Positions 43,510 to 45,421 of a stretch of 64,000 nucleotides of DNA are shown here, in pieces. The DNA lies in the NCBI RefSeq assembly GCF_000263195.1, contig NC_018748.1, positions 558,001-622,000 of the forward strand, written 5' to 3'. Each line of letters opens with the position of its first letter. The first letter of the stretch is position 1. Below the pieces are notes generated by a model, which saw nothing but the letters and a program-made list of their open reading frames with translations, was not told the DNA's origin and ran no database searches. The stretch is from Emticicia oligotrophica DSM 17448. GTDB lineage: Bacteria > Bacteroidota > Bacteroidia > Cytophagales > Spirosomataceae. A program made the translations under genes and the position numbers.

Positions 43510-44256
43510 ATGAGACGTTTTACTACTTTCATTGTATTTCTATTATTGTCGAATATTGTTATTGCCCAAATCAGCAATAATAAATACGACTATTTCCTAC
43601 GAAATGCCAAAGTTGCCGATAACAGTAATAGCCGCATTATTATTAACAAAGCCACTGGTGATACTACTTTTCAGGCATTTTATAATATCAAAGATATTGT
43701 AAATAATACTAATCAGGATTTTAGTAAAATCTACAAAGGGACGCCTTTCTTTAAAAATGGTTGGTATAAAGGTACATTCAATACTGAAAGTGGGAAAAAG
43801 ATGGAGTTCGTCATGGCTTTTAATGTTCAAAAAAGTGAACTTTATATAGTAGAAGACGCCAACAAAGAAGCCATTGCCATTCGCCCTGATGCATTTACAA
43901 TTATGGGACACCACTTTAGCAAATTTGAAAAAGCCTATTATGAAGTGGTTTACATTGGAAAAAATACATTATTGAAAGAATATAATTGCAATTTTCATAG
44001 TAATAATAGTGGTGAAAAAACAGGCTATGAAGCATCTGGTCAATATGATGGTGAATTCGTAAAATCATCAAAGTTATTATTACTAAAAGATGAACAAGTA
44101 ACGCAAATGCCCAAGGGTAAAAACTTTTATGCCCTTTTTGGCGATAAAAAAACTTTGATTGAAGAATACGTAAAAACGAATAATATTAGTTTAAAATCAG
44201 AAAATGGTATCGTAAGTACACTCAAATACTACGATTCGTTAGAAAGACCTCAATGA
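43510..44256 (+). CDS. Secreted protein of unknown function
   Basis: A 248-residue protein with a signal peptide (RRFTTFIVFLLLSNIVIAQ). The mature part contains YDYFLRNAKVADNSNSRIIINKATGDTTF and YYEVVYIGKNTLLKEYNC; it reads as mixed beta, without known motifs. Its stop overlaps the start of the amidotransferase-like gene by 4 bp (ATGA), so the two are translationally coupled. The shift from an exported to two cytoplasmic products in one unit is odd. I recognise no family. Confidence 0.7.
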   Translation: MRRFTTFIVFLLLSNIVIAQISNNKYDYFLRNAKVADNSNSRIIINKATGDTTFQAFYNIKDIVNNTNQDFSKIYKGTPFFKNGWYKGTFNTESGKKMEFVMAFNVQKSELYIVEDANKEAIAIRPDAFTIMGHHFSKFEKAYYEVVYIGKNTLLKEYNCNFHSNNSGEKTGYEASGQYDGEFVKSSKLLLLKDEQVTQMPKGKNFYALFGDKKTLIEEYVKTNNISLKSENGIVSTLKYYDSLERPQ

Positions 44257-45074
44257 AAATAGGCATTACAGACTGTGGAGAGAAGCATCCAATCTATGAA
44301 AAATGGATTTTATCGCAAAATGCTTTGGTAAATACTTCGCACATTGAAGTAATTAAGCTTGGCTATAAGTACAATAATCTACACGAAATAGAGCAATGCG
44401 ATGGTATTATTCTATCAGGTGGAGAAGATGTTCATCCAAGATTTTATAACAAACCTGAATTTTTGAGTTTGTGTAATCCCAACTTCATGGACGAAAGAAG
44501 AGATGAATTTGAATGGCAAGTATGTGAATATATCTTCAAAAATCATGTTCCTGTTTTAGGAATTTGCCGAGGTCTGCAATTGGTTAATGTATTTCTTGGC
44601 GGAACACTTATCCCCGATTTACCAACCGCAGGCAAAGAAAATCATTCAAAGTATTTTGAAGGGAAAGACCGCTATCATAACATAGAAATCTTACATGATT
44701 CTGAACTTTCAAAAATCACAAATATTGTTTTCGGCGATGTCAATTCTGCTCATCATCAATCAGCAGATATAATTGCTCCCTCACTCAAAGTAAATGCTTT
44801 CTCTGATGATAAAGTGGTGGAAGGATTGGAGTTCGACTTCGCTCACTCACCCCAGTTAGAACAGTTGAGTGAGCGAAGCCAAACCCACGCTCACTCAACA
44901 GAATCAGCTTCAGTGGCTTCGACTCCGCTCAGCCACCAAAGCCACAACAAACACAGCCACTACCTAATGCTCGTACAGTGGCATCCCGAACGAATTATCA
45001 ATGCCGAACAAAATAGTTTTTCTTATAAAATTCGACAAAATTTTGTCGAAAATATTCAATCAAAAATTCAATAA
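44253..45074 (+). CDS. Gamma-glutamyl-gamma-aminobutyrate hydrolase-like class I glutamine amidotransferase (peptidase C26) with palindromic insert
   Basis: Cytoplasmic hydrolase cleaving gamma-glutamyl bonds, related to PuuD. It is 273 residues. Catalytic Cys105 is in VLGICRGLQLVNVFLGG, and His244/Glu246 in VQWHPE. GIILSGGEDVHPRFY gives the oxyanion side; NSAHHQSADIIAPSLKV follows. Between GLEF and HYLMLVQWHPE the family normally has only a few residues. Here there are about 40 extra (about 195-235, rich in Ser, His, Gln, Thr), encoded by two palindromic DNA modules. The frame is kept, so the protein may still work with a surface loop. It overlaps both neighbours (4 bp and 1 bp). Confidence 0.88.
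   Translation: MKIGITDCGEKHPIYEKWILSQNALVNTSHIEVIKLGYKYNNLHEIEQCDGIILSGGEDVHPRFYNKPEFLSLCNPNFMDERRDEFEWQVCEYIFKNHVPVLGICRGLQLVNVFLGGTLIPDLPTAGKENHSKYFEGKDRYHNIEILHDSELSKITNIVFGDVNSAHHQSADIIAPSLKVNAFSDDKVVEGLEFDFAHSPQLEQLSERSQTHAHSTESASVASTPLSHQSHNKHSHYLMLVQWHPERIINAEQNSFSYKIRQNFVENIQSKIQ
44832..44940. repeat. Compound palindromic insert inside the amidotransferase gene
   Basis: Module 1: CTTCGCTCACTCA (44837-44849) and TGAGTGAGCGAAG (44866-44878), a 13-bp perfect stem with a 16-base loop. Module 2: GTGGCT (44913-44918) and AGCCAC (44931-44936) around TCGACTCCGCTC. Both modules contain TTCGACTyCGCTCA (44832-44845 and 44918-44931; 13 of 14 identical). A third CGCTCACTCA lies at 44888-44897. 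Length and frame leave the host gene open. Confidence 0.8.
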
Positions 45075-45421
45075 TGACACTCGAAGAATTCCTAAAAAAA
45101 TTAAAAGAAACTCCTCAAGAAGTAGCATTTACAGATACCATGGCTGTAGTAGAAGCCAATTACGATTTTACACCTACAGCATTTCAAAACGGTGATTTGA
45201 GTAATGAAGCTGGTCAAAACTCGGGTTCATGCAAATTGTTTTCCTTTGCTAAAATTCAAGGCTTTTCAGTAGAAGATACGCTTGCATGTTTTGGCGATTT
45301 TTACAGAAAAGACGTACTCGAAAACCCCGAAGCGAGTAATCACCAAAATATCAGAAACTTTATGAAAACTGGTTGGGCAGGGATTTCTTTTGAAGGAACA
45401 GCACTTACGGAGAAAAAATAA
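45074..45421 (+). CDS. HopJ type III effector family protein
   Basis: A 115-residue protein that matches the HopJ family end to end: EEFLKKLKETPQEVAFTDTMAVVEANYDFTPTAFQNGD, NEAGQNSGSCKLFSFAKIQG, LACFGDFYRKDVLENPE and HQNIRNFMKTGWAGISFEG. Despite the name, the family is widespread in environmental bacteria without type III secretion, so a cytoplasmic housekeeping role is more likely than host manipulation. Its ATG overlaps the stop of the amidotransferase-like gene (TAATG), indicating coupled translation. Confidence 0.93.
   Translation: MTLEEFLKKLKETPQEVAFTDTMAVVEANYDFTPTAFQNGDLSNEAGQNSGSCKLFSFAKIQGFSVEDTLACFGDFYRKDVLENPEASNHQNIRNFMKTGWAGISFEGTALTEKK

Follow-up and report, generated by a model that had tools for sequence, protein, structure and literature searches.

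Palindromic repeats in bacterial genes

Rickettsia palindromic elements (RPEs) are described as palindromic repeats of about 150 bp that lie both between genes and, in frame, inside them (PMC10969869). The GTAG and CGTC REPs, in turn, are described as palindromes of 20-40 bp that occur in high copy, mostly intergenic and near gene ends, with some in ORFs; more than half of these ORF-internal REPs are reported to form dimers or groups encoding 20-30 residues, the CGTC REPs have stems of 8-9 bp, loops of 4-5 nt and an unpaired tag, and movement by RAYTs has been hypothesised for the GTAG REPs (PMC3733652). Inverted repeats may also be altered in place, and template switching between their arms is described as inverting the spacer and homogenising the arms in yeast genes (PMC8604942; see also PMC8794818 for the mechanism). 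The former report further points to template switching in genes of E. coli and in non-coding repeats of proteobacteria. How palindromic repeats enter protein genes, and what their fate is once there, is the question addressed here.

The window, the whole 64,000-nucleotide stretch of the Emticicia oligotrophica DSM 17448 genome that was analysed, contains a hydrolase gene in which a repeat of this general kind is present in frame. It is likely that a genome-wide hairpin repeat, with three copies in this gene, entered it in the ancestor of one Emticicia clade, has been tolerated as neutral baggage and flips by template switching.

The host gene and its insert

The host gene (44253-45074, forward strand) encodes 273 amino acids and is identified, from the ORF list together with Pfam and profile matches, as a PuuD-like hydrolase of the Peptidase_C26 or class-I glutamine amidotransferase-like type. 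The protein matches PF07722 (Peptidase_C26) with an E-value of 2.4e-37 and PF00117 (GATase) with one of 1.3e-10, and the profile of an alignment of 31 proteins (A1) matches the solved structures PDB 3fij (E 9.7e-40) and PuuD, 6vtv (E 1e-23). Cys105 (codon at 44565-44567, forward strand), presumably the nucleophile, and His244-Pro245-Glu246 (44982-44990, forward strand) are invariant in all 31 aligned sequences. A 115-residue ORF (45074-45421) begins on the final base of the host-gene stop codon (TAATG), and this overlap of start and stop suggests that the two probably form one operon.

Comparison of relatives with and without the extra residues delimits an in-frame insert of 42 amino acids, F194-S235 (44832-44957, forward strand), which contains three motif copies and lies just before the catalytic His244. 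The frame stays open across the whole insert, and the first-pass annotation, in claiming that both the frame and Cys105, His244 and Glu246 had been retained, was correct. It had also estimated about 40 added residues; the block is slightly longer than the one it had marked, and the net gain in alignment A1 is 33 residues relative to E. aquatica (L119) and 36 relative to Emticicia sp. 21SJ11W-3 (L120). An AF2 model of the host protein has a mean pLDDT of 85.9, with values of at least 90 in 182 of the 273 residues and below 50 at residues 210-233. In this structure prediction, proposed earlier as a check, the insert connects strands 189-194 and 238-241 as a low-confidence loop.

Two palindromic modules with a common 14-mer had been described in this block, and both are found, together with a third, inverted copy. 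Module 1 (44831-44884), identified by inverted-repeat search and DNA folding, consists of two 19-nt arms (44831-44849 and 44866-44884) that are 89% complementary and separated by a 16-nt spacer. Its first arm carries motif copy 1 (TTCGACTTCGCTCA; 44832-44845, forward strand), a motif match from the genome search that is read as FDFAH, and its second arm carries the inverted copy, found by motif search with two mismatches (TTTGGCTTCGCTCA; 44870-44883, reverse strand) and read as SERSQT. Module 2 (44913-44936), recognised by sequence comparison and DNA folding, is a GTGGC-TTCGACTCCGCTCA-GCCAC hairpin whose loop is motif copy 2 (TTCGACTCCGCTCA; 44918-44931, forward strand), read as ASTPLS. Copies 1 and 2 are identical at 13 of 14 positions, with the common pattern TTCGACTyCGCTCA. 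Folded as single-stranded DNA, the module 1 stretch reaches -13.8 kcal/mol (z -6.1, with none of 200 shuffles as good) and the module 2 stretch -4.7 kcal/mol (z -2.3, with 8 of 200 shuffles as good). With up to two mismatches allowed, the window contains three matches to the motif against 0.44 expected, a number reached by one of 100 shuffles.

A dispersed hairpin repeat

The same DNA had been predicted to occur elsewhere in the genome, and rather than being single-copy it is abundant there. The 5.22-Mb genome of E. oligotrophica (G000) contains 54 exact copies of TTCGRCTHCGCTCA and 29 of TTCGACTYCGCTCA, while the reversed pattern is found on neither strand. Five other Emticicia genomes are also rich in the motif, with 57 exact copies of TTCGRCTHCGCTCA in G004, 27 in G009, 23 in G005, 21 in G010 and 16 in G006. 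The five motif-poor Emticicia genomes contain 0-6 copies, and the reversed control is absent from all 11 genomes.

The places examined in the E. oligotrophica genome comprise all 54 exact copies and 25 copies with one mismatch, the latter a non-exhaustive set from the fetched stretches only. Seven of the 54 exact copies sit within five long Pfam-supported genes, namely the window gene and a gene for an Eco57I-type methylase (two each) and genes for a leucyl aminopeptidase of family M17, an AtuA-like protein and an FG-GAP/UnbV protein (one each). An eighth encodes part of the C-terminal tail in a GIY-YIG protein of 131 aa. Copies with one mismatch are in frame in the genes for a transketolase, a glycosyltransferase, an altronate/galactarate dehydratase and a Kdo transferase, the last with three tandem 24-bp units. 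In total, nine genes in this genome carry an in-frame copy inside the coding part. The other exact copies are intergenic, fall in short ORFs or lie right at the beginning of a long frame, where they probably belong to the leader. The 14-mer is translated in varied frames and in both orientations, giving FDFAH or FDFAQ, STSLS or STPLS, LRLRS, LSEVE or LSEAE, and ERSR. Peptide runs in Bacteroidota proteins such as FDFAQ, LSEVE, AERSRS and STPLS may be repeat-derived.

Two local arrangements accompany these copies. In the GIY-YIG gene (131 aa; L077, 1012-1405, reverse strand), the exact copy (FDFAQ) and a second FAQ-like stretch both follow the GIY-YIG domain, and the repeat may therefore be the source of the protein's C-terminal end. 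Tandem motif arrays with units of 23 bp and 21 bp lie at positions 1010400-1010528 (L003) and 3491715-3491833 (L080) of G000:C5, each in a single orientation and outside long genes.

Among the 54 exact copies of E. oligotrophica, 26 have a flanking stem of at least four contiguous pairs (G-U allowed), against a mean of 6.8 and a maximum of 14 in 1000 partner shuffles. When the six motif-rich genomes are pooled, such stems of at least 4 bp are found at 99 of 196 exact copies, against a mean of 24.8 and a maximum of 37 in 500 partner shuffles; the pooled set is 196 of the 198 counted copies, after duplicates of context and copies at locus edges dropped out. In this set the base at +4 is A in 181 copies and that at +6 is C in 183, and 15 different 5-bp stems occur among the copies with stems of at least 5 bp. 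Given the strong pairing of the flanks and the fixed A and C, the family is a hairpin repeat with a unit of about 28 bp, in which a constant 14-nt loop, TTCGRCTHCGCTCA, and a 3' nnnAmC are set in a variable stem, although the constancy of the loop is in part a product of the search, as copies were found through the loop. No Rfam family matched at the gathering threshold among the 10 loci searched.

Beyond the genus, at least one exact copy of TTCGRCTHCGCTCA is present in 170 of 395 genomes drawn evenly from the phylum, and at least 20 copies, counted by eye, in 27 of them including that of E. oligotrophica. The spread is patchy both between and within genera, and the reversed controls reach at most two copies per orientation. 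The highest count, 162 exact copies, is found in a 3.9-Mb genome of another family (G059).

Filled and empty sites in Emticicia

Matches to named relatives put the genus as Emticicia, the best of them being to Emticicia aquatilis at 84% identity. A search of 58 genomes with the host protein gave a match in 16. Within Emticicia, the host gene is present in E. oligotrophica and in nine of the ten other genomes, the exception being G005, a draft that is 81% complete. Empty sites were sought in the window gene and in the genes for the aminopeptidase, the AtuA-like protein and the transketolase. The insert of the window gene is present in G000, G004, G006, G009 and G010 (a draft of 240 contigs), in variable form, and absent from G007, G008, G002, G003 and G001. 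Among the 31 proteins of A1 it is restricted to these five from one Emticicia clade, and it is thus no conserved domain of all relatives. That relatives have only a short turn at this place, as the first-pass annotation had stated, holds for those outside the clade; within it, four sister species carry their own inserts. A tree of four proteins, with data missing for several genomes, sets the six motif-rich genomes (16-57 copies) apart from G007 and the rest with a support of 100, while branch support within the motif-rich clade is weak (51-68) except for G006 with G009 (99).

The genes for leucyl aminopeptidase and the AtuA-like protein show filled and empty states as well. The aminopeptidase block occurs in G000, G010 and G004 but not in G006, G009, G007, G001, G002, G008 or G003; that of G010 is homologous but without any copy within one mismatch of the motif. 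At this place the best solved match to the aminopeptidase, 3jru, has six residues between the aligned parts, compared with 26 in the query. The AtuA insert is found in G000, G004, G005 and G010 and is absent from G002, G008, G003, G001 and G007; in G006 and G009 the AtuA gene itself was not found. The transketolase motif is confined to G000 among five aligned loci of seven, those of G001 and G008 having been dropped for a pattern mismatch. At the same place the transketolase of G005 (L184) contains unrelated extra residues, suggesting that this turn accepts insertions generally. At the corresponding place in the Kdo transferase gene (L085, 1497-1558; L278; L231), G005 has one motif pair, G004 two modules and a partner copy, and G000 three tandem 24-bp units.

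Opposite orientations at shared sites

For the comparison of orientation, places common to the six motif-rich genomes were used where sequence had been retrieved for both loci, and masking of the loop kept its orientation from steering the alignment. At some of these places the copies lie in opposite orientations. Inverted pairs were found at six of the 36 shared places where both 60-nt flanks are at least 65% identical, and at four of 21 where they are at least 80% identical. Lowering the threshold to 50% gives 13 apparent inversions among 50 places, of which several are, by eye, mispaired neighbouring copies; a stricter count, judged too strict, left three places with none inverted. Greedy selection of independent pairs at 65% gave four inversions among 37. 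The six flips at the 65% threshold comprise one well inside a gene (AtuA), three at the 5' end of a long frame, which may be leaders, and two that are intergenic. Two further intergenic pairs, L010/L197 and L292/L248, appear inverted by eye and lie outside this count.

The cleanest flip distinguishes L273 of G004 from L232 of G005, where the flanks are identical at 58 of 60 and 59 of 60 positions and the loop is TGAGCGTAGTCGAA in one and TTCGACTACGCTCA in the other. In this pair and in G005 L227 and G010 L203, both 60-nt flanks are 88-98% identical with the loop reversed. In AtuA, the peptide RGFDFAQPP of G000, G004 and G005 corresponds to WWLSEAEAP in G010, with FDFAQ replaced by LSEAE. Reverse-complemented, the AtuA core of G010 matches that of G000 with one mismatch in 25 positions (14 if left uninverted), unpaired base included. 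As this unpaired base is inverted together with the loop, the loop moves by one in reading phase, and the stop codon that it contains when reversed does not come into frame. For module 2 of the window gene, G000 has the forward orientation (VASTPLS), whereas G004, G006, G009 and G010 have the reverse (e.g., VAERSRS). The flanks of this module in G000 are identical to those of G004 at only 38 of 60 and 43 of 60 positions, making this a weaker case in which a flip is only probable and independent replacement is possible.

Origin and fate of the repeat

The distribution above is consistent with in-frame entry of the repeat, in the common ancestor of one Emticicia clade, at the turn that precedes the catalytic His/Glu strand. 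The host would tolerate the insert because five of the six readings of the 14-mer are free of stop codons, as translation shows, and because the turn is apparently free to lengthen, as the low-confidence loop of the model suggests. Once inserted, the copy may have been neutral baggage that is still changing, with modules gained and lost. The hairpin would then invert in place when, in replication, the DNA polymerase changes from one arm to the other as its template, a flip that would preserve length and frame and rewrite the encoded peptide. Template switching predicts length-preserving flips at unchanged sites, and these are seen (6 of 36 places). It also predicts compensatory changes in the stems between orthologues, and the signal for these is weak: in 37 orthologue pairs, three of 259 positions show them (mean 0.79 and maximum 4 in shuffles), whereas five positions changed on both sides without pairing and 45 changed on one side and were unpaired. 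The arms pair strongly across copies (99 of 196) while changes match only weakly between orthologues. An extension of this reading, tentative and rather doubtful, is that the loop is the conserved unit of a Bacteroidota-wide class of hairpin repeats that spreads, gains a local stem by template switching and flips, serving as a frame-preserving switch of surface peptides.

RAYTs are the usual suspects for the dispersal of such repeats. A miniature element of the REP or REPIN kind, moved by a RAYT (Y1 tyrosine) transposase and flipped through excision and reinsertion of single-stranded hairpins, would account for a repeat that is REP-like in its high copy number, its position mainly outside long genes and its patchy spread in the phylum. 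REPs within ORFs are already published (PMC3733652), and all 11 Emticicia genomes contain Y1_Tnp matches, 57 in total with nine in E. oligotrophica. However, such genes are also present in the motif-poor genomes, and no conserved GTAG or CGTC run lies within 12 nt of the loop in the 196 copies. When 27 of the 57 Y1_Tnp loci were scanned up to about 1.5 kb on each side, an exact copy was found about 1.4 kb away in one (L111, in G010) and one-mismatch copies 0.5-1.3 kb away in three (L055, L059 and L108), with none closer. RAYTs were rejected as the mobiliser on the ground that no motif closely flanks any of these 27 loci, and the transposase account is improbable. The earlier suggestion of a small mobile repeat is borne out by the genome-wide copies and the empty and filled sites; no mobiliser was found among these loci, and enzyme-driven transposition is unsupported. 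Near three of the RAYT-like (Y1_Tnp) genes (L056, L101 and L106) lie other palindromes with stems of 8-18 bp, unrelated to the motif, which may be the true REPs of those genes. Opposite orientations could instead reflect independent insertions, or replacement by other copies through gene conversion, with no inversion at all. Module number and order vary freely at several places, such as the Kdo transferase gene, and the flanks in the window gene have diverged, as this explanation would expect. Against it stand the two pairs with reversed loops between nearly identical flanks and the asymmetric bulge of AtuA, inverted together with its loop, and it is considered no more probable than the transposase.

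Some copies suggest a different role, in which the repeat would serve chiefly to terminate transcription, with its conserved loop bound by some partner, and its genic copies would be chance strays. A subset has stems of 14-18 bp with runs of A and T, resembling one-way or two-way terminators, and lies between convergent genes (L019, L076 and L080) or past the 3' end of a gene (L012 and L078). At the 3' end of dapA, a terminator-like hairpin is seen by eye in all 10 genomes displayed. Nine of these 10 hairpins lack the loop of the repeat, however, which is found there in E. oligotrophica only; in addition, the majority of stems are short, and a terminator role leaves the spread into coding genes unexplained. 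This role is unlikely as the main one, if somewhat less so than the two preceding accounts. At dapA (L162-L171), the place of the hairpin is fixed while its stem and loop differ among most Emticicia species, a pattern that suggests fast turnover of the terminator. Insertion of the loop into the apex of a pre-existing terminator with its stem retained was also considered there and rejected, as the stem in E. oligotrophica is, by eye, unlike the other nine. A role for the insert as a functional peptide or domain within the hydrolase is highly improbable. The insert is retained in five genomes without a frameshift, but its model confidence is low, the same DNA is found in unrelated genes, and between G000 and G004 only 15 of its 42 residues are identical, compared with 214 of 231 elsewhere in the protein. 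Entry of a hairpin repeat as neutral baggage, with flips by template switching, is the preferred reading.

Comparison with known systems

A search of the open-access literature found no paper that describes this repeat, or similar repeats flipping within bacterial genes. As strings, the 14-mers gave no match there, the 12-mers and RNA forms appeared only under unrelated titles, and a related string returned no title on such repeats. Intragenic REPs are already known from other phyla and RPEs from Rickettsia; the unexpected feature here is that copies of a dispersed bacterial repeat flip in place. In conserved enzymes, the same sites are empty, filled, multi-copy or inverted depending on the sister species, and this range allows the steps of insertion and change to be read from sequence.

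A parallel with RPEs had been drawn at the outset and is fair as an analogy: in Emticicia, too, copies lie both in and between genes, and insertion is in frame in conserved protein genes, as in the window gene, the aminopeptidase and AtuA with their empty orthologues. By this analogy the repeat would work like an RPE, while membership in a known family is unsupported. The two are set apart by description, RPEs measuring about 150 bp and the Emticicia unit about 28 bp with a conserved loop in another phylum, and by the opposite orientations seen at one site in the Emticicia repeat. With REPs the repeat shares a short palindrome, high copy number and a mainly intergenic position. The GTAG and CGTC features of REPs were tested and are absent, as there is no unpaired tag in the 196 copies (12 nt on each side) and GTAG occurs only inside some stems. 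CGTC REPs differ further in their loops, that of Emticicia being 14 nt and constant while its stem varies (15 different 5-bp stems), and REPs mobilised by RAYTs differ in that no close repeat flanks the 27 scanned Y1_Tnp loci.

Minute hairpin inversions are known from chloroplast DNA, where the loops of short hairpins invert between related species. The inversion of a loop between relatives is common to both; the chloroplast cases concern organelle DNA and are not known to involve a dispersed repeat. Coding palindromes described in the mitochondria of Nematomorpha are likewise inverted repeats within functional protein genes, although as described both arms encode conserved protein there, with no inserted repeat (PMC6649704). 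The template-switch inversions of yeast are similar in that spacers are reported to flip in coding DNA, altering several neighbouring residues together, but the inverted repeats of that account are host sequence, whereas those of Emticicia are a repeat family that entered the gene (PMC8604942). The Emticicia sites would extend template-switch inversion to a dispersed bacterial repeat inside genes and offer a route for testing how proteins gain loops.
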